Assembly (NCBI RefSeq): GCF_000622245.1
Contig: NZ_JHXW01000014.1
Coordinates: 1-59,893, forward strand
DNA from: Fusobacterium perfoetens ATCC 29250
Lineage (GTDB): Bacteria > Fusobacteriota > Fusobacteriia > Fusobacteriales > Fusobacteriaceae
Direction of reading: 5' to 3'
DNA: 59,893 nt
Shown: piece by piece, positions 32,714-59,893 of the stretch
How the letters are laid out: each line of letters starts with the position of its first letter
Position numbering within the stretch: position 1 is the first letter of the stretch
The notes under the pieces: generated by a model
Told to the model about the DNA's origin: nothing
What the model saw: the letters and a program-made list of their open reading frames with translations, nothing else
Databases searched by the model: none
Position numbers and translations under genes: made by a program

Positions 32714-33757
32714 ATGGAAATAACAACTCAACTTGCTAATAGTATAGTCATTGAAATGAAAAAAATAATACAAAAAGATTTGAATTTTATAAATTCAAAA
32801 GGAATTATAATAGCTAGTACTGATGAAAAACGTGTGAATTCTTATCATGAAGGGGCCTTAAAAGCCATAGAAAAAAATGATTCTATAATTGTTGACTGGG
32901 AATTACAATATCAAGGTGCTAAAAAAGGGATAAATATTCCTATTAAATTTTTAGATGAAATAATTGGTGTTATTGGAATTTCTGGAGAAAGAAAAGAAGT
33001 TGAAAAATATGGTGTTATTATAAAAAAAATGGTTGAAATACTAATAAAGGAAGCTTATTTATTAAAAAAGAAAGAAGAAGAAGAGTATGAAAAACTTTTA
33101 CTTGAATCCATTATTTTTGAAGGTAATAGTAAACAAGAACTAAAAGGAAAAGGAAGAATAGTAATTATAAAATTAAATGCTAATTCTGAAACAAGTATTA
33201 TAAAAAATTTTTTTCAAAAAATAAAAGAATTGGTAAAAAGAGAGAAAGACTTATTAATGTTACGTCATGATAAAATTATTATTCTTTTTTTTGATAAATC
33301 TAAAATTTATCTAAAAAATTTTATATTAAAAATTGATAAATTAAAGATAGAAACTAAAGTTGGAATAGGAGAAGAAAAAGAAGAAATAAAAAAAATAGGT
33401 GCTTCTTATCAAGAAGCATTAACTGCATTAGAATGGTGCGATAAAAATAATAATAAAGAAACTTATTATGAAGAAATGTTATTAGAAATTGTATTAAATA
33501 GTATCAAAGAAAAAGAAAAAAATAAATACTTAAACAAAGTTTTTAAAAATCTAAAACCTGAAGAAATTAAAGAATATTCTAAAATAATCTCTTTATATGA
33601 AAAATATAATGGTTCTTTAAATAAAATATCAAAAGATTTTTGTTGTCATAGTAATACTCTTCAATATAAATTAAATAAATTTTACGACAAAACAGGTTAT
33701 GATATGAGAAGATATACAGATTTTGTTATTATAAAAATAGCTTTTTCTCTCATTTAA
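32714..33757 (+). CDS. CdaR-family transcriptional regulator
   Basis: 347 residues. N-terminal diacid-recognition domain (QLANSIVIEMKKIIQKDLNF, GIIIASTDEKRVNSYHEGA), a degenerate GGDEF-like middle (VGIGEEKEEIKKIGASYQEALTAL) and a C-terminal PucR-type helix-turn-helix (NKISKDFCCHSNTLQYKLNKFYDKTGYDMR). E. coli CdaR activates glycerate and sugar-diacid genes (established). Here the neighbours are a carrier and an amidohydrolase on one side and, 3 kb away, glycerate kinase. GAGGAG precedes the ATG. Confidence 0.9.
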   Translation: MEITTQLANSIVIEMKKIIQKDLNFINSKGIIIASTDEKRVNSYHEGALKAIEKNDSIIVDWELQYQGAKKGINIPIKFLDEIIGVIGISGERKEVEKYGVIIKKMVEILIKEAYLLKKKEEEEYEKLLLESIIFEGNSKQELKGKGRIVIIKLNANSETSIIKNFFQKIKELVKREKDLLMLRHDKIIILFFDKSKIYLKNFILKIDKLKIETKVGIGEEKEEIKKIGASYQEALTALEWCDKNNNKETYYEEMLLEIVLNSIKEKEKNKYLNKVFKNLKPEEIKEYSKIISLYEKYNGSLNKISKDFCCHSNTLQYKLNKFYDKTGYDMRRYTDFVIIKIAFSLI

Positions 33758-51048: not shown

Positions 51049-51918
51049 TTATACTTTAGCATCCCAAATGAATACATCATAATTATCAAGATTTTTTTCT
51101 AAAGTTTCTATATTTTCTGTAGCTTCATTTACTATAGCTTTTCCTAATTCATTAGCTATTGCTTCAACAATAAACATAGATGGTAAATTAGCTAAAGTAC
51201 TATTAACTGAGTTAGTATCTATAACAACATCTGCATATCTAGCTATAGGATTTAAAGTTGTATTTGTTATTAATATTATAGGAACATTTCTTTCTTTAAA
51301 TATTCTAGCAATTTCTATTGTTCTTTTTGTACATGGCCATACAGAAAAAACAACTAAAACATCTTCTGCCTTCGCTCTTAAAGCTCTATCATATAAAAAA
51401 TCTGATTCATTGCTTAATTGTCTAACTTTTGGATAAAATCTTTCTATCATATATTCAAAATATAAAGCTACAGCTTTTGAAGAACGTAATCCTAGAACGT
51501 TTATAGTTTGACTATTAATCATTAATTCTACAGCTTTTGAAATTTCTTCAATATTTTTAGGTGTAATAAAATTTTCTATAGTATGAATAGCTTCATAACA
51601 AGTTTTAGTAAGTATATCGGTATTTGGACTATTTACTATATTTTTAAATCCTTCTTTTATATTACTATATGATGTTGTTTTATTTTTTAAAGAATAATCT
51701 AATAAATCATGTTTAAAATCACTATAATTTTCATAATTTAGTAACTTCATTAATCTCATTACTGTTGTAGTTCCAACTCCAGAAGCCTCAGCTAATTCTG
51801 CTACTGTCATCATCCCTACTTCTGTATATTTCAAAACTATAAAATCACACAACATTCTCTGTTTTTTGGGTAATACATCCTTTATTCTCATTATTTCTTC
51901 TACTATATTTTTTTCCAT
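51049..51918 (-). CDS. MurR/RpiR-family transcriptional regulator
   Basis: 289 residues. N-terminal RpiR helix-turn-helix (MTVAELAEASGVGTTTVMRLMKLL) and a C-terminal SIS domain (about 125-260, INVLGLRSSKAVALYFEYMI, DVLVVFSVWPCTKRTIEIA) that normally binds a phosphosugar or related ligand. The start is ATG 51918 with GGTGGGAG upstream; an in-frame TTG at 51933 is less likely. It is the only regulator in the 51-59.9 kb transport neighbourhood, so it is the best candidate to read the repeated upstream elements there (inference). Confidence 0.93.
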   Translation of the reverse strand: MEKNIVEEIMRIKDVLPKKQRMLCDFIVLKYTEVGMMTVAELAEASGVGTTTVMRLMKLLNYENYSDFKHDLLDYSLKNKTTSYSNIKEGFKNIVNSPNTDILTKTCYEAIHTIENFITPKNIEEISKAVELMINSQTINVLGLRSSKAVALYFEYMIERFYPKVRQLSNESDFLYDRALRAKAEDVLVVFSVWPCTKRTIEIARIFKERNVPIILITNTTLNPIARYADVVIDTNSVNSTLANLPSMFIVEAIANELGKAIVNEATENIETLEKNLDNYDVFIWDAKV

Positions 51919-52152: not shown

Positions 52153-53079
52153 TTAGATAAATTTAGCAAAGAAAGCTGATAATGCATCCATTAATCCAAC
52201 TAGTTTTGGATCATTGTCAAACATCCATTCATTGTGTTTTCCTTCTACAAAGTATAATTCTTTTGGTCCTTTTGCTAATCTATAAGCTTCTTCAGCTTCT
52301 ATTTTATCATGTAATTCATTATATCTTCCATGTCCTACAAATACTCCACACTCTAATTTAGATAGTGCATATTCAACATTAAATCTGAAGAAAGAGTCTC
52401 CTATTGCTGTTGACATTGGTGTTGGGAATGATTCTCCAGCATCTTCATCAGCTTTTCCTCCAACTCCTCCATTTAATTTTTTCAATGTACTGTCTATATA
52501 GAAATCTCCTGATTCTTCAATATTTGGGTATACTACATATGGATGTCTTAATACGATATCTCCAGTAGTAGCTCTAGTTATTTTATCTTGCTCTAATAAT
52601 TCTAATGATCTATGGTATTTGTCATTTCCCATTCCCATTCTCATCCAACGATCTCCGTCAACAAAAGAGTTTAAAGTAGCTACAACTTTTACAGTTTCTT
52701 TTTCTCTTCTAGCTGCTTCAATACATACAGCTCCTCCAACTCCCCATCCGATTAATCCTATTTTATTTCTATCTACTTCAGGTTGAGCTTTTAAGAAGTT
52801 AATAGCAGCACATACATCCTCTACTTCTCTTTCTAGAGTTGTATATTTAGTTAGTCCTTCAGATGGTTTGAATCCTCTGTAATCGAATCCCATACATACA
52901 TATCCTCTTTTAGTTAAGTCTCTAGCGAACATTGCTGGGTATACTATATTTAATCCTGTCCATCCTGAGTTAGCGATTATTGTAGGTCTTTTTTCTCCTT
53001 CTTTGTAATCATCTGGTAGATAAATAGTTCCTACTAATTTATCTCCTTCACTGTAAAATACAACTTCTCTTTGTTTCAT
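52153..53079 (-). CDS. Alpha/beta-hydrolase-fold protein without the catalytic serine
   Basis: 308 residues, cytoplasmic. The fold is clear: NSGWTGLN where the oxyanion loop lies, FDYRGFKPSEG, the nucleophile elbow after DRNKIGLIG, and a late His in EGKHNEW. But the elbow reads GWGVGG, so the usual Ser of G-x-S-x-G is Gly, and the acid position looks like Asn (GHGRYNELHD). The codons are confirmed by reading the DNA (GGA TGG GGA GTT GGA). Codon choice differs from neighbours: many TTC, TAC, ATC, AAC and GAC codons, as in highly expressed genes. A consensus promoter and strong terminator surround it. Function unknown; it may be a non-hydrolytic or binding protein, or use unusual chemistry. Confidence 0.85.
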   Translation of the reverse strand: MKQREVVFYSEGDKLVGTIYLPDDYKEGEKRPTIIANSGWTGLNIVYPAMFARDLTKRGYVCMGFDYRGFKPSEGLTKYTTLEREVEDVCAAINFLKAQPEVDRNKIGLIGWGVGGAVCIEAARREKETVKVVATLNSFVDGDRWMRMGMGNDKYHRSLELLEQDKITRATTGDIVLRHPYVVYPNIEESGDFYIDSTLKKLNGGVGGKADEDAGESFPTPMSTAIGDSFFRFNVEYALSKLECGVFVGHGRYNELHDKIEAEEAYRLAKGPKELYFVEGKHNEWMFDNDPKLVGLMDALSAFFAKFI

Positions 53080-53146: not shown

Positions 53147-53175
53147 ATTATACTCTTTTTTATTCTTTCTGTCAA
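53147..53175 (-). promoter_or_regulatory. Consensus promoter of the hydrolase-fold gene
   Basis: Perfect TTGACA (53175-53170), 17-bp spacer, perfect TATAAT (53152-53147). Leader of about 60 bases with AAATAAAA-type repeats and then AGGAGG. Confidence 0.88.
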
Positions 53176-53186
53176 CTCTTTTTTTA

Positions 53187-53210
53187 AAAAAAGTTTATTT
53201 GTTCTTTTTT
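53187..53210 (-). promoter_or_regulatory. Shared upstream element, copy B
   Basis: On the plus strand AAAAAAG-TTTATTTG-TTCTTTTTT. It ends 11 bp from the -35 box, the same distance as in copies at 55638 and 58352. It may be an operator or an UP element. Confidence 0.6.
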
Positions 53211-53268
53211 TTATAAAAAAACAATCTTTTTTAATTATTTATAATTTGAAAATATTTATTTTTTAATT

Positions 53269-54036
53269 TTATTTTATAAAAATACTAATACCCATACTTA
53301 TTATTGTAAAAAAACAAATTATTAAAAAAATTATTTTTACAAATCTTACTCCTTTTGTTATAGCATATTTTGCTCCTAGTTGTCCTCCTAAAAACATAAA
53401 TATTCCCATTGGAACAGAATATAAATAATCTATTTTTCCTAAATATATAAATGATAATAACCCAGCAAATGTAGATGTAAAACTAATAATTTTAGCATTT
53501 CCCGAAGCAGTAACAAAATCATACTTATAAATTTTTATAAACATAAGCATCATTAATCCACCACTTCCAGGACCAAAAAATCCAGAATAAAATCCTAATA
53601 TAAGAGACCATGCTGTTCCTAAAAAATTTATTTTTTTAGTAATTTCTATAAACTCATTTTTTACCCCTAAGTTTTTATTTAATAAAGTATAAATTAATGT
53701 AAAGATTAATAAAAATATTACAATATATTCTAAAATATCTTCTTTTATTAATGTTGCACTTTTAGCTCCTAATATTCCCCCAATAAAAGAAACTATTATA
53801 GGATATTTTAAAACTTTAAGATTAATTTTTCCTGATAATATATATTTTAGACTACTCCCTAAACAACCAAAAGTTACAGCAAATTTATTTGAACCTAAAG
53901 CATAATGCATTGGCATTCCTGATAATATATAAGCTGGTAAACTTATAACTCCTCCCCCTCCTGCTATAGCATCTATAAAAGCAGCTAAAAAGCATGAAAT
54001 ACTTAGAAAAATAAAAATATTTAAATTAAAATCCAT
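53269..54036 (-). CDS. TSUP (TauE/SafE) family permease
   Basis: 255 residues, about seven to eight membrane helices. AAFIDAIAGGGGVISLPAYI and the second repeat GFYSGFFGPGSGGLMMLMFI are the paired glycine-rich motifs of the family, which carries sulfite, sulfonates or other small anions. AGGAGG directly follows the gltS terminator, so expression seems to depend on read-through. Substrate unknown. Confidence 0.9.
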   Translation of the reverse strand: MDFNLNIFIFLSISCFLAAFIDAIAGGGGVISLPAYILSGMPMHYALGSNKFAVTFGCLGSSLKYILSGKINLKVLKYPIIVSFIGGILGAKSATLIKEDILEYIVIFLLIFTLIYTLLNKNLGVKNEFIEITKKINFLGTAWSLILGFYSGFFGPGSGGLMMLMFIKIYKYDFVTASGNAKIISFTSTFAGLLSFIYLGKIDYLYSVPMGIFMFLGGQLGAKYAITKGVRFVKIIFLIICFFTIISMGISIFIK

Positions 54037-54047
54037 TAAAACCTCCT

Positions 54048-54083
54048 AAAAAAATAATCCTCTAAAATTAATTAGAGGATTAT
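54048..54083 (-). terminator. Terminator between gltS-like and TSUP genes
   Basis: A 12-bp perfect stem, ATAATCCTCTAA (54054-54065) with TTAGAGGATTAT (54072-54083), six-base loop, then seven Ts on the minus strand that run into the TSUP ribosome site AGGAGG (54047-54042). Confidence 0.85.
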
Positions 54084-54108
54084 CATAAATACAAGTTTCA
54101 CAATACGA

Positions 54109-55494
54109 TTATTTTCTTCCTATTATTTCTGCTTCACCAGGTCTTAAAGCATCCATTGGTAAACTATATGAACCATATTTAATTTTACATAATAATAACA
54201 TTCCTAATGCTATTGTTGTTAATACTGCTCCTATAGGTATAACACCTATAGATACACAAAATACTGGAACCATTGTTATTAAAAATAATTCAATAATTGA
54301 TTGTAAAGTATATGCTGTTCCAAAATCATCTAATGTACCACTCTTCATTTCAGGGTCTACTATTCTTAATAACGTAACTCCTACTGCCACAACTCCTGTT
54401 ATATATCCAAAAATAAATATTGATCTTTCAAACCAAAAGTTTCTAAATAATTTTCTAGCAACATAAAATACTAATATTACTGGCCAAGCTGTTCCTATTA
54501 TACATAAAACTAATATAGGGCCTATAAAATCTAAAACTACTGATACTTGAATAGTTGCAACCCCAAAAGCAACTAAATAATCTGTTACTCCACTTCCAAT
54601 TCTATCAATAACCCTTTTATCTACATATGAACCATAACCTATTTTATTTAATATTCCTTGAATAACAACTCCAACTAACATAGCCACACACATTAAAGGA
54701 ACTTCTATATTTGGAAAATATTGTTTATAGAAACTATAAATAGCAAATCCTATTCCTGTTGTCATAAGTATAAGTCCTATATGCCAAGCTAATGGGTCCA
54801 TTGCCATTGGATGAACTGTTTCATCTCCCATTGTTTGTCTTTTTTCTACTGGAATCATTCCTGTTTTACACTCTTCAGGAAGAGAACCAATACTCTCTAT
54901 TAATTTTGTTGCTCTTTTTCTAGTAGCATAATTTATACAAATTATACCTCCAAATATACCAACTAATAGTCCTATTGTAGCAAATGTTTGACCTATTACT
55001 ACTCCGTCTGTTCTATTCAATAATGTGTTTAATGTTCCTCCAATAGCAGCAGCATAACCATGTCCTCCCATAAATCCTGATGGTAAAAGAACAGATATTT
55101 CCACAAACACATTTGGAAAAAATATTTTTACTAAAATACCACCTAATAAACATGCCAATCCAAAGCACATAAATTCACTTGACATATTTATTAAAAATGT
55201 ATCTCCAACTTTATTTACAGTTTCTTTTAAATTAAATTTTTCTTGTTTTCCTAAAAATATTCCTGCAAATAATACACAAACTAATAAATAAGCATAAGAC
55301 CCTGTCTGATTACTAAAAGGTAAAATATCTAAAAATTGTGGTCCCCCAAATAATCCTAAAAAACCAGCAACTAAAGATGAAGGTATATAATAGTTTTGTA
55401 AAAATTTAATTTTACTTCTCATCATTTGAGCTATAAATAATAAACCTGACATAATACAAAAATCTAATAACATTGACCATGCTGTAAACTGCAT
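54109..55494 (-). CDS. GltS-family sodium/glutamate symporter
   Basis: 461 residues, longer than the 401 of E. coli GltS, with about 12 membrane helices. The reentrant-loop motif LPSGFMGGHGYAAAIGGTL and its pair in the second half (SVVLDFIGPILVLCIIGTAWPVI) fit the family (PF03616). A soluble loop at about 205-230 separates the halves. Substrate may be glutamate or a related acid. AAGGAGG precedes the ATG. Strong promoter with the shared upstream palindrome. Confidence 0.88.
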   Translation of the reverse strand: MQFTAWSMLLDFCIMSGLLFIAQMMRSKIKFLQNYYIPSSLVAGFLGLFGGPQFLDILPFSNQTGSYAYLLVCVLFAGIFLGKQEKFNLKETVNKVGDTFLINMSSEFMCFGLACLLGGILVKIFFPNVFVEISVLLPSGFMGGHGYAAAIGGTLNTLLNRTDGVVIGQTFATIGLLVGIFGGIICINYATRKRATKLIESIGSLPEECKTGMIPVEKRQTMGDETVHPMAMDPLAWHIGLILMTTGIGFAIYSFYKQYFPNIEVPLMCVAMLVGVVIQGILNKIGYGSYVDKRVIDRIGSGVTDYLVAFGVATIQVSVVLDFIGPILVLCIIGTAWPVILVFYVARKLFRNFWFERSIFIFGYITGVVAVGVTLLRIVDPEMKSGTLDDFGTAYTLQSIIELFLITMVPVFCVSIGVIPIGAVLTTIALGMLLLCKIKYGSYSLPMDALRPGEAEIIGRK

Positions 55495-55597
55495 ATTTTC
55501 GCCCTCCTTATTTTTCCTTTTAAAAGTTTTAGTTTAAATTTTAAAAAACATAATAAGTCTTTTTTGTACAAAATTAAGACAATAATTTTATAGTATA

Positions 55598-55626
55598 AGT
55601 ATACATCAAAAAAGAAATGTTGTCAA
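55598..55626 (-). promoter_or_regulatory. Promoter of the gltS-like gene
   Basis: Perfect TTGACA (55626-55621), 17-bp spacer, TATACT (55603-55598) on the minus strand. Confidence 0.82.
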
Positions 55627-55636
55627 TTGTTTTTTC

Positions 55637-55662
55637 TAAAAAAGAATTTAAATTCTTTTTTA
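55637..55662 (-). promoter_or_regulatory. Shared upstream element, copy C (26-bp perfect palindrome)
   Basis: The left arm TAAAAAAGAATTT at 55637-55649 is followed by its exact complement at 55650-55662. The inner 24 bases (55638-55661) match the AAAAAAG-N8-TTCTTTTTT pattern and end 11 bp from the -35 box. Confidence 0.68.
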
Positions 55663-55735
55663 TAATAATTTATTTTTATTTTTAAATTAAAAAACAAAAT
55701 AAATATCTTTTTTTGTTTTTTTACATATTAATAAT

Positions 55736-55767
55736 AAAAAAAGGAACTATTTTTTAGTTCCTTTTTA
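55736..55767 (-). terminator. Terminator after the BCCT gene
   Basis: AAAAAGGAACTA (55738-55749) pairs with TAGTTCCTTTTT (55755-55766), T run on the minus strand. Confidence 0.85.
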
Positions 55768-55801
55768 TTTTTATTCAATTATTCACTATCTGCAACTCAT
55801 T

Positions 55802-57361
55802 TTATTCACAACAATCATTACACTTAGAAACTTTATCATATTTTTTATGATTTACTATTAACATTATCAAACTTGCTGTTGCTCCTATCATAATAAGTGC
55901 TGCAAACATTCCTCCAAAGTTAGCAATTACTTTTACTCCATTTACTCCAAATAAAGAAATCATAATATATCCTAAGGACATTGTTATAGCTCCCCAAATA
56001 AGTTTTAATCTATTTGGTGCCTCTGGATTATCAGGATCAATTCCATGAGTAGATATTCCTGCCATTGCAATTGTATTAGAGTTACATGCAGTAACTATTG
56101 ATAAGAAAATTAAAATAACAAATAAAGGTATTATGATTTTTCCTAAAGGCATCGCTGCTAACATATCATATGGAACATTTTCAACACCTCTATTGTAAGA
56201 ATCTACTAAGTCAACAGCCCCACTTTTATGTAACCATAATGAAGTCCCACTTACAAGAGTCATCCATAAAGCACTTACAGTAGCACATATTCCTATATAT
56301 AAACCTAAAACATGTTTTATTTTACGTCCATAAGCAATTCTTCCCATAAATGCTCCTGAAGTTGGCGCCCAAGACATCCAACTGAACCAATAGAAAGTTG
56401 TCCACCATTGTGGCCATTGAGTTTCATGGGCTGCTCCTGTAACTAACATTTTTTCAAAAAATCCTCCAATAAATCCTCCCATTGCTTCTGTTGCTAAATT
56501 AAACAAGAAAGGAGCATTTGAGAAAATAATTAAAAATACTAAGAAAACTATATAACCATAAACATTTATATCAGCTACATATTTTAATCCTTTTTGAATT
56601 CCAGATATTGAAGTGGCAACTACAGTAATCCCTATTATTATTCCTATAATTAACCATAATTTTGGATTACTTGGAATTCCCATCATTTTAGAAACTCCTC
56701 CAGCTACATTCATAAATCCTTGAGCTACTGAACCAGCCATTCCTGCTGAAATTGAGAATAATGTAATAGCATCTATTATATTTACTGTTTTTTGATTATC
56801 TGCATATTTTCCTAATACTGGTGCCATCTCACTAGCAATAGAAAATGGCTTTTTACCATTATAATACATAAAAGCAAAAACTACAGCTGGAACTGTATAG
56901 ATTGCATATGGAACTACAGTCCAATGTAAAAACATTGTTTCCATAGAAAATTTTAATGCATCTTTTGATAATGGTTCTATTCCTGTGATATCTGTAGCTG
57001 GATTTAATAAGTGAGCTATTGGTTCTGCTGGTCCCCAGAATAATACTCCTGCAGCCATTGTTGTTGTAAGAGCTATTGTAAACCAAGAAAAATCAGATAA
57101 TTCTGGTTTAGCATCTTCTCCTCCAATACGAACATCTCCAAATTTTGAAAACATTGCTACAATTCCTACTATTGTTACAGCTAAAGCTAGAATACTTTCC
57201 AACCATCCAAAATTGTTAATAATTCCATTGTTAATAGTATTAATAGCATTAATAAATTTATCTTCACTAACTATTCCTAATAATACAAACACCAATAAAA
57301 TTATAAATGGTGGAAAAAATGTCATTTTACGTAATTTTAGATTCTTTCCTCTATCTTCCAT
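55802..57361 (-). CDS. BCCT-family betaine/carnitine/choline transporter
   Basis: 519 residues, about 12 membrane helices. The aromatic-box segment FYWFSWMSWAPTSGAFMGRIA and the TM3 stretch MAAGVLFWGPAEPIAHLL are diagnostic of BCCT carriers; HWTVVPYAIYTV follows. The glycine stretch (TTMAAGVLFWG) differs from that of sodium-driven BetP, so coupling is not certain. The ribosome site AGGAGG is within the end of the nitrilase gene, which stops one base before. It probably brings in the nitrilase substrate, a quaternary or N-methylated amine (inference). Confidence 0.93.
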   Translation of the reverse strand: MEDRGKNLKLRKMTFFPPFIILLVFVLLGIVSEDKFINAINTINNGIINNFGWLESILALAVTIVGIVAMFSKFGDVRIGGEDAKPELSDFSWFTIALTTTMAAGVLFWGPAEPIAHLLNPATDITGIEPLSKDALKFSMETMFLHWTVVPYAIYTVPAVVFAFMYYNGKKPFSIASEMAPVLGKYADNQKTVNIIDAITLFSISAGMAGSVAQGFMNVAGGVSKMMGIPSNPKLWLIIGIIIGITVVATSISGIQKGLKYVADINVYGYIVFLVFLIIFSNAPFLFNLATEAMGGFIGGFFEKMLVTGAAHETQWPQWWTTFYWFSWMSWAPTSGAFMGRIAYGRKIKHVLGLYIGICATVSALWMTLVSGTSLWLHKSGAVDLVDSYNRGVENVPYDMLAAMPLGKIIIPLFVILIFLSIVTACNSNTIAMAGISTHGIDPDNPEAPNRLKLIWGAITMSLGYIMISLFGVNGVKVIANFGGMFAALIMIGATASLIMLIVNHKKYDKVSKCNDCCE

Positions 57362-57362
57362 T

Positions 57363-58223
57363 TTAAAAACCTCCTAATTTTTCCATACTTTCTATATTTT
57401 TTATATTTTCAGTTAATTGGTGATATGATTCAATATTTCTATCAGTCAATACTGTATTAAATGCTCTATCAGATTTAACTCTATCTAAATGAATATCTTG
57501 ATATAAAATAGTTTCTTCTTCAATTCCCAATGTTCCCAAAACTTGTCCTAATGGATTTACTATTTGAGATTTTCCTGCATACATATCATTTTCATCTCCT
57601 GTTACTCCACATTGATTACAAGCTACTACATACATTAAATTATCTAATGCTCTACAAGAAAGTGTTAAATCCCACCATTCTTTAAAATAGTATCCACCTC
57701 TCCAAGCTGCTGGAGTTATCATTAATTCAGCTCCATTAAGAGCTAATATTCTACTGCTTTCTGGAAAACAAGCATCATAACAAATTGTCATCCCAATTTT
57801 TCCTAATTTAGTATCAAATACAGGATATTTCATTCCTTTTCTTACTAATGTACGTTCTTCCCCAACAGGATGAGTTTTAGCATAAGTCCCTATAATATTT
57901 CCTTCGTCATCAATTATAATTGCTGTATTTTCATATATATTTTTTTCTACTTCTAAAAGTATTGTACAAACAATATGAACTGTTAATTCCTTTGCTAGAG
58001 ATTTTAATTTTGTTAAAGTATATCCATCTTCTTTTTCTATTAAATTAGTATATTTATCCATTCCTCTAAATTTTAACCCAGTATTAAATACTTCAGGAAG
58101 ACATACTAACTTAGCTCCTTTCTGTGCAGCTTCTCTAATAAATTTTTCTGCTTTTTCTACATTTTCTTTAACTAAGCCAAAATTACTACTCATTTGAACT
58201 ACTGCTACCTTATAACTTCTCAT
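57363..58223 (-). CDS. Carbon-nitrogen hydrolase (nitrilase superfamily amidase)
   Basis: 286 residues. Hydrolyses a C-N bond of an amide or carbamoyl compound. The Glu-Lys-Cys triad is seen in VCLPEVFNTG, YAKTHPVGEE and TICYDACFPES; the later Glu-containing AAWRGGYYFKEWW is also family-like. By size and motif it fits omega-amidase or N-carbamoyl-amine hydrolase, not a true nitrilase. The start is ATG 58223 with AGGAGG six bases upstream; an ATG 21 bases further upstream has none. It is transcribed with the BCCT gene. Confidence 0.93.
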   Translation of the reverse strand: MRSYKVAVVQMSSNFGLVKENVEKAEKFIREAAQKGAKLVCLPEVFNTGLKFRGMDKYTNLIEKEDGYTLTKLKSLAKELTVHIVCTILLEVEKNIYENTAIIIDDEGNIIGTYAKTHPVGEERTLVRKGMKYPVFDTKLGKIGMTICYDACFPESSRILALNGAELMITPAAWRGGYYFKEWWDLTLSCRALDNLMYVVACNQCGVTGDENDMYAGKSQIVNPLGQVLGTLGIEEETILYQDIHLDRVKSDRAFNTVLTDRNIESYHQLTENIKNIESMEKLGGF

Positions 58224-58311
58224 AATAAACCTCCTATTTTTCATATATTATCAAAACTTTAATTTCTAAAACAAAACATTCTAACTATTATAAGTTCATA
58301 TTACAGTTATA

Positions 58312-58340
58312 ATTATAAACGATATCAAGGAAGTTGTCAA
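58312..58340 (-). promoter_or_regulatory. Consensus promoter of the nitrilase-BCCT operon
   Basis: Perfect TTGACA (58340-58335), 17-bp spacer, perfect TATAAT (58317-58312) on the minus strand. Confidence 0.88.
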
Positions 58341-58351
58341 CCTTTTTTGTA

Positions 58352-58375
58352 AAAAAAGTTTTTTTATTCTTTTTT
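58352..58375. promoter_or_regulatory. Shared upstream element, copy A, in a divergent gap
   Basis: On the plus strand AAAAAAG-TTTTTTTA-TTCTTTTTT, 11 bp from the nitrilase -35 box and 13 bp from the -35 box of the divergent DUF6282 gene, so it could serve both. Confidence 0.6.
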
Positions 58376-58388
58376 TTGATATAAAGTA

Positions 58389-58417
58389 TTGTCTATTTTT
58401 TTTATTTGTGATACAAT
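58389..58417 (+). promoter_or_regulatory. Promoter of the DUF6282 gene
   Basis: TTGTCT (58389-58394), 17-bp spacer, TACAAT (58412-58417). Confidence 0.62.
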
Positions 58418-58455: not shown

Positions 58456-59325
58456 ATGGAACAAAATTTTCATGAAATAGCTAAAGAATTAATGAAAGGA
58501 GCATATGACTTACATACTCATACAGAACCTTCTGCTTTTAATAGAGCCCTTGATGATTTTGAACTAGTATTAGAAGCCCAAAAATATGGAATGGCTGGAG
58601 TAATGATTAAAAGCCATTACGAACCTACTCAATCAAGAGCAAATCTTGTTAATAAAAGATTAAATTCCAATACTAAAGCTTTTGGAGGAACTGTTTTAAA
58701 CTGGCCAAATGGTGGTTTAAATCCTTTTGCTGTAGAAAATGCTTTAAAAAATGGAGCTATTATTGTTTGGATGCCTACAAGAGATTCTAAAAATTGTTTA
58801 AGATATGGAGATATGCCTGGAGATTTCTTTAAAAGACCAGGAATAACAATTTTTGACAAAAATAAAAATTTAATAAAAGAAGTTTATGAAATATTTGAAA
58901 TAGTAAAAAAATATGGAGCTTATCTTGCAACAGGACACTTAAGTCCAGAAGAATCTATAAAACTTTGTGAAGAGGGAAGAAAAAATGGAGTTAATATGAT
59001 TTTAACTCATCCAGAATGGCCACGTACTGTAGTAAATGGTGAAACTCAAAAATATTTAGCTAGTCTTGGAGTTCTTATTGAAAAAAATTGGTTAAATGTA
59101 GCTGAAAATTCTATTTCTATAGAAGAAATGGCAAAAAATATAAGAATGGCTGGAATTGAAAATACGTATTTAGCAACAGATAGAGGACAAAATGGTTTCA
59201 AACATCCAGCTGAAGAGATGTTGAATTTTATAGTTGCTTTATTAGAACAAGGATTTACAAAAGATGAAATAAAAACAATGATACAAACAGTCCCTTCATA
59301 TATAGCTAATAAAGTAAAAAGATAA
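58456..59325 (+). CDS. DUF6282-type amidohydrolase-superfamily protein
   Basis: 289 residues, soluble. The metal-ligand pattern of the amidohydrolase superfamily is visible: DLHTHTEPS (His20, His22), Lys and His in VMIKSHYEPT, His in ATGHLSPEE, His in LTHPEWPR, and Asp in LATDRGQNG. These suggest a TIM-barrel metal-dependent hydrolase; the family has no established substrate that I know. The start is ATG 58456 with AGGAGG, not the upstream in-frame codons. It is divergent from the nitrilase-BCCT operon and followed by an anion permease. Confidence 0.8.
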   Translation: MEQNFHEIAKELMKGAYDLHTHTEPSAFNRALDDFELVLEAQKYGMAGVMIKSHYEPTQSRANLVNKRLNSNTKAFGGTVLNWPNGGLNPFAVENALKNGAIIVWMPTRDSKNCLRYGDMPGDFFKRPGITIFDKNKNLIKEVYEIFEIVKKYGAYLATGHLSPEESIKLCEEGRKNGVNMILTHPEWPRTVVNGETQKYLASLGVLIEKNWLNVAENSISIEEMAKNIRMAGIENTYLATDRGQNGFKHPAEEMLNFIVALLEQGFTKDEIKTMIQTVPSYIANKVKR

Positions 59326-59405: not shown

Positions 59406-59893
59406 ATGTTAATATTAATTGGTATACTAATCTTTTTGGTTACTTTCTATTTTATTATTACAGAAAAATATCCAAAATCTTTAGTATCTATTATTGGTGG
59501 TGGACTAATGGTTGTTATCAGAATTTTAAATGAAGAACAAGCATTAGAAGTTGTTGGATATAATCTTGAAATTCTAGTTCTTTTAATTGGAATGATGGTT
59601 ATTGTTGAAATTATGTCTGAAACAGGAATTTTTCAATGGATAGCTATAAAATTAGCTCAAGTAGTTAAAGGAGACCCTATTAAAATTCTAGTTCTTCTAT
59701 CTATTGTTACAGCTACTTGTTCAGCTTTTTTAGATAATGTTACTACTATTCTTTTAATAGTTCCTGTAACTATTTTCTTAGCTAATAGGTTGAAATTAGA
59801 ACCAAAACCATTTGTATTAATGCAAATATTTATGTCTAATATTGGTGGAACAGCTACAATGATAGGAGACCCACCTAACTTAATTATTGGAAG
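59406..59893 (+). CDS. SLC13/ArsB/NhaD-type ion permease (5' part, cut by window edge)
   Basis: The first 162 codons of a membrane carrier that is open at the right edge. Hydrophobic segments alternate from the start; FLDNVTTILLIVPVT and GGTATMIGDPPNLIIG are the paired signature loops of the ArsB/NhaD/P-protein group within the ion-transporter superfamily. Substrate might be an organic acid, arsenite or Na+; not decided. ATG with AGGAGG eight bases upstream. It follows DUF6282, so the two probably share a function. Confidence 0.88.
   Translation, partial: MLILIGILIFLVTFYFIITEKYPKSLVSIIGGGLMVVIRILNEEQALEVVGYNLEILVLLIGMMVIVEIMSETGIFQWIAIKLAQVVKGDPIKILVLLSIVTATCSAFLDNVTTILLIVPVTIFLANRLKLEPKPFVLMQIFMSNIGGTATMIGDPPNLIIG

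Follow-up and report, generated by a model that had tools for sequence, protein, structure and literature searches.

The contig NZ_JHXW01000014.1 of Fusobacterium perfoetens ATCC 29250, analysed as a whole (59,893 nucleotides, hereafter the window), contains three promoters that share one upstream element at one fixed distance, which raises the question of whether this element is the operator of a local regulator or merely a well-tuned part of strong promoters. The initial annotation had named an RpiR-family protein, encoded nearby on the minus strand (51049-51918), as the candidate binder, and had offered strongly tuned UP elements as the other reading. Re-reading of the coordinates reproduced its description of the sites exactly: AAAAAAG-N8-TTCTTTTTT occurs in three copies within 5.2 kb, at 53187-53210, 55638-55661 and 58352-58375, each exactly 11 bp from a minus-strand TTGACA (53170-53175, 55621-55626 and 58335-58340, respectively), followed in all three promoters by a 17-bp spacer and a -10 box that reads TATAAT, TATACT and TATAAT. 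The copies, termed O1, belong to the minus-strand core promoters P1 (53147-53175, -10 box at 53147-53152), P2 (55598-55626, -10 box at 55598-55603) and P3 (58312-58340, -10 box at 58312-58317), of which P1 and P2 lie 5′ of an alpha/beta hydrolase gene and a gltS-like gene, while O1 of P3, assigned to neither strand, sits amid the divergent nitrilase-BCCT and DUF6282 genes. The analysis makes it probable that O1 is the operator of the RpiR protein, defining one local regulon in which the protein would act as a repressor covering the -35 box.

In promoter sense, on the minus strand, O1 of P1 reads AAAAAAGAACAAATAAACTTTTTT and O1 of P2 reads AAAAAAGAATTTAAATTCTTTTTT; together with its flanks the latter forms the perfect 26-bp palindrome TAAAAAAGAATTTAAATTCTTTTTTA, confirming what had been described at the gltS-like gene, and in the hydrolase and nitrilase copies 4 of the 12 pairs are mismatched, all in the core. 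The full element is best described as a putative 24-bp palindromic operator, A5-6(R)G-N10-C(Y)T5-6. Among the promoter-like sites of the window with at most one consensus mismatch, it was found at these three only, as annotated, and the genome-wide search that had been proposed as a check matched the exact pattern three times in the AT-rich genome of 2.1 Mb, always at this cluster, versus zero times for a reversed-pattern control. When the search also required TGTCAA at its fixed spacing and tolerated up to three mismatches, the sole additional match was the other strand of the gltS palindrome (control: three). Chance is excluded as the cause of the clustering of the sites. The pattern was derived from these same three sites, and weight is therefore placed on out-of-sample tests. 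No further regulon members were visible genome-wide with a relaxed operator plus -35 pattern (20 matches versus 23 of the reversed control), nor was any genome-wide enrichment seen for the palindrome score alone (A5G-N10-CT6). In the 98 Fusobacteriota genomes searched, the combination of AAAAG-N10-CTTTT and, 12-16 bp further on, TTGAC was as frequent as its control, except at this cluster.

Comparison with the orthologous upstream regions of related species, likewise suggested at the outset, showed that the palindrome with its G-N10-C core recurs in four relatives. The gene cluster is present in four other Fusobacteriota genomes (G004, G005, G006 and G027; duplicate hits on contig C5 of G006, loci L055 and L056, were counted once), and the hydrolase promoters of all four carry the element, as TAAAAAGTTTTTAAAAACTTTTTT, AAAAAAGAATAAATAAACTTTTTT, AAAAAAGTTTTTAAAAACTTTTTT and AAAAAGGAATAAATATTCTTTTTA, respectively. 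The core letters differ between these relatives, and what is kept are the A/T arms and a G and a C separated by ten bases; the interval between that C and the -35 box differs by at most 2 bp from species to species. Such a G-N10-C frame around a variable core is the behaviour that would mark a dimer's operator. Two copies in G005 deviate, the gltS copy having one additional base between the G and the C, and the nitrilase copy a weaker distal half.

Beyond the Fusobacteriota, a scan of contigs with RpiR alone found no relatives; the cluster was found instead with a hydrolase alignment, which recovered it in Lachnospiraceae, [Clostridium] symbiosum (L170), Anaerotruncus, Lawsonibacter, Faecalispora and one Synergistaceae genome, with an RpiR protein of 44-60% identity beside the same genes. 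A palindrome model was then trained, unseeded and with every start tried, on the 260 bp upstream of the hydrolase gene at ten Firmicutes loci and no Fusobacteria, and the best 24-bp palindrome, AAAAAGGAATATATATTCCTTTTT, reached a total of 221 bits, versus 135 ± 3.6 (maximum 145) in 40 dinucleotide shuffles. Scanned over the window together with 400 kb sampled from contig C24, about 459,000 positions, this Firmicutes-trained model placed the window's three sites at ranks 1, 2 and 3. A fourth high-scoring site, at 32922-32945, lies inside the coding frame 32714-33757; it was rejected as an operator and is probably a chance match.

The regulator and the site are also inherited together. The RpiR protein carries PF01418 (HTH_6, E 8.8e-9) and PF01380 (SIS, E 8.2e-21), both above cut-off, and orthologs of at least 51% identity occur together with the hydrolase in exactly the same five of about 98 Fusobacteriota genomes, the next RpiR match being 26% identical. 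At each of the 17 RpiR-bearing loci, 10 of them used in training, a cluster promoter carries a site of at least 12 bits. Eight related loci had no RpiR in the fetched stretch, and none of these carries such a site within 200 bp; one has a 14.0-bit match at 211 bp. The recognition-helix arginine, R55, does not vary among 16 orthologs and aligns with an Arg of 4ivn. In the SIS domain, the phosphate-binding loop, usually SxSGxT, reads SxWPCT in 15 of the 16 orthologs and SxWPCG in L172, so that one serine has become Trp with the other phosphate-loop residues kept. The altered loop suggests an unusual effector; the cluster encodes no sugar enzymes, and the effector may possibly be other than a sugar phosphate.

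In Firmicutes promoters the palindrome occurs twice: a further copy (O2), whose core includes the -35 box, has its centre 28-31 bp downstream of that of O1, examples being TAAAAGG-TTGACAAATT-CCTTTTT in L185 and AAAAAAG-TTGAAATATT-CTTTTTT in L167. The pairing search admitted only spacings of 26-34 bp and TTGA/TTGT in O2, which in part dictates the range of spacings. Outside the training set, O2 was found in L175 of the Synergistaceae (AAAATAG-TTGACTTATT-CCTTTTT), and the separate gltS promoter of L168 has the same O1/O2 pair. In the window, O2 of P3 (AAAAAGGTTGACAACTTCCTTGAT, 58324-58347, minus strand) holds the -35 box in its core, scores 14.1 bits with the Firmicutes-trained model and is its sixth-ranked match. 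At the other two promoters the O2 position, also on the minus strand, is degenerate: at P1 (53159-53182, score -10.8) the left half AAAAGAG is kept and the right half lost, and at P2 (55609-55632, score -0.4) the right half TTTCTTTTT is kept and the left half is poor. The two-site layout with fixed spacing is found in several Firmicutes, Synergistaceae, G027 and at P3. The fixed distance from O1 to the -35 box is probably explained by the overlap of O2 with that box, and, since O2 contains the box, the UP-like A-tract beside TTGACA would be the left arm of O2. A further O1/O2 pair in Faecalispora (L172, 8452-8503) points leftward, away from the RpiR gene, and likely serves an additional target gene in that organism.

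The proposal of a local RpiR operator is hence supported by sites that are unique in the genome, follow rpiR across species, form a conserved palindrome and were found again from Firmicutes promoters. We infer that an RpiR dimer would bind the O1 palindrome and that a tetramer would bridge O1 and O2; it would cover the -35 box together with the A/T tracts that precede it and block RNA polymerase until released by an effector. The hydrolase, gltS-like, nitrilase-BCCT and probably the DUF6282-permease transcripts would then constitute the regulon of one uptake/catabolic pathway. Repression by covering the -35 box appears the most likely mode because of the analogy with Escherichia coli MurR and because repression is the mode reported for the other RpiR regulators. 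Several points weigh against this proposal. O1 occupies a position 5′ of the -35 box that activators use as well, and has the composition of an UP element, so its conservation could partly serve RNA polymerase; the promoter of the RpiR gene itself lacks the element here; and O2 is clear in the window at the nitrilase promoter only, P1 and P2 each having one half-site. As to the model, its 24-bp width and palindromic form were chosen after the finding had been seen: 24 has the highest total score among the palindrome widths, but with a width of 22 the ranks of the window sites become 1, 4 and 7, and with 23 the top 12 include two of the three. The shuffle statistic is, moreover, too generous, because orthologous promoters share ancestry.

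The main rival, which we consider unlikely, retains RpiR and its operator and has it activate: bound at O1 beside the site of the C-terminal domain of the RNA polymerase alpha subunit (alpha-CTD), it would recruit the polymerase in the manner of Streptococcus pneumoniae NanR (SpNanR). This agrees with the centre of O1, which lies about 23 bp 5′ of the -35 box, and with the degenerate O2 at P1 and P2, and SpNanR, an RpiR protein, does activate, with a full site and a half-site near an UP element (PMC12713135), a precedent that speaks against repression here. Yet the consensus -35 and -10 boxes of P1 and P3 rarely need an activator, the -35 box is inside O2 in many relatives, as fits occlusion, and all other reported RpiR regulators are repressors according to the SpNanR authors (PMC12713135). 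Binding of the element by another transcription factor, whose gene would lie elsewhere, is given hardly any probability: co-occurrence with RpiR is a correlation, but in each of the five Fusobacteriota genomes the sole regulator seen adjoining the cluster is RpiR, which also neighbours it in Firmicutes and Synergistaceae.

Bacterial UP elements consist of A/T tracts that directly precede the -35 box, and such tracts stand next to the -35 boxes here as well. The elements might then be strong UP elements alone, contacted by alpha-CTD, with no specific regulator, a reading in line with the T-tract/A-tract beside the -35 box and with T5..A4..TTGACA being commoner in this genome than its reversed control. 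About ten further TTGACA sites of the genome have a T-tract/A-tract just upstream, but both the distal A6G half and the G-N10-C frame are absent from them; the full element, rather than recurring at unrelated strong promoters, is confined to this one cluster, and neither a G-N10-C palindrome nor such a restriction is expected of UP elements. The G and C are also kept across species although an UP element has no need of them, and the site was recovered from the G+C-richer Firmicutes. Because the distal half is missing elsewhere and the G and C are conserved, the second reading of the initial annotation is not supported, and with the genome-wide uniqueness of the element and those ten or so other sites it was rejected, little probability being left to it. 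The palindromes were considered, too, as intrinsic terminators of the upstream genes, as each is followed by T's and the gltS copy folds at -7.2 kcal/mol. Weak folds and position rule this out in practice: the other two copies reach -2.6 kcal/mol and have no G+C stem, the P3, G004 and G006 copies lie between divergent genes, where nothing ends, and the BCCT gene is followed by a stronger hairpin of its own, at about 55739-55768. This latter hairpin with its T-run (AAAAAGGAACTA...TAGTTCCTTTTT, 55739-55768), downstream of BCCT, lies in the interval that separates this gene from the P2 operator and is likely an intrinsic terminator.

The proposed RpiR regulon can be compared with two known systems. 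The operator bound by SpNanR, TCTGAAAGTACTTTTAGA, is contacted by Arg56 at positions 4 and 15, and the phosphate in its SIS loop is bound by Ser179, Ser181 and Thr184 (PMC12713135). The present system shares with it the RpiR family, a palindromic A/T-rich operator, several sites per gene cluster and a full site with a weaker partner nearer the promoter, and the Arg56-contacted bases are 10 bp apart, equal to the separation of the G and C here. It differs in that NanR activates, senses N-acetylmannosamine-6-phosphate (ManNAc-6-phosphate) and binds a site that precedes the -35 box by about 55 bp, whereas O1 lies 11-13 bp from the box and O2 contains it; as aligned by eye, Arg67 of NanR corresponds to Ser66 here, and the phosphate-contacting Ser181 to Trp194. 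E. coli MurR (EcMurR), whose sites are taken here from the description in PMC12713135 only, has been proposed as a tetramer bridging two operators 17 bp apart over a span of 47 bp that covers the -35 and -10 boxes (PMC12713135). The 17-bp separation and 47-bp span are near the 28-31 bp centre spacing of O1 and O2, whereas the genes, the effector and the operator sequence are others. A wider proposal is advanced tentatively: a new RpiR subfamily, marked by the SxWPCT loop, would act through paired operators, one of them enclosing the -35 box, on a conserved hydrolase-nitrilase-BCCT-GltS-DUF6282 pathway of Fusobacteriota, Firmicutes and Synergistota, and would sense a ligand other than the usual sugar phosphates.

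The regulon as initially annotated holds. Its hydrolase (52153-53079, P1 target), gltS-like and nitrilase-BCCT members share O1, all being encoded on the minus strand. The GltS-like symporter (54109-55494, P2 target) is followed by a TauE/SafE-type permease gene (53269-54036), presumed from its orientation to be on the P2 transcript, and the P3 transcript comprises a nitrilase-superfamily (CN_hydrolase) enzyme (57363-58223) as its first gene and the BCCT transporter (55802-57361) as its second. The DUF6282 protein (58456-59325, plus strand) is a likely but weaker member, having its own divergent promoter beyond the third operator. This promoter, P4 (58389-58417, plus strand), was read from the sequence as TTGTCT, a 17-bp spacer and TACAAT; O1 of P3 ends 13 bp upstream of it, a distance that, judged by eye, is not kept in G005. 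A CitMHS-type permease gene (59406-59893, plus strand) follows and is cut by the contig end.

Unlinked transcripts without an assigned function are in this way joined in a probable regulon that has a candidate regulator identified by name, a defined operator and an effector open to testing. The same regulator, genes and site occur in three phyla of mostly gut-type anaerobes, so that annotation of the pathway in all three could follow from a single experiment in a tractable Clostridium relative, e.g. [Clostridium] symbiosum (L170). The conserved operator pair with the -35 box inside one member provides a testable model for the action of this RpiR clade. No paper naming DUF6282 and none on such a regulon was found in the open literature, which is not proof of absence.

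Further minor features concern the relatives. In G006 (L055, 10552-10600), and also in G004, the DUF6282 leader contains a hairpin (-14.9 kcal/mol) that encloses the Shine-Dalgarno sequence AAGGAG, and such a leader hairpin is absent from the window species. Throughout the compared 18.9 kb, the two strands of contig C5 of G006 (L055, L056) are 100% mirror-identical, which is probably an artefact of assembly. In G005, DUF6282 is split across three contig ends (C15, C12 and C28), with one copy adjoining TRAP transporter-like genes, which suggests that near-identical DUF6282 copies broke the assembly of this genome.

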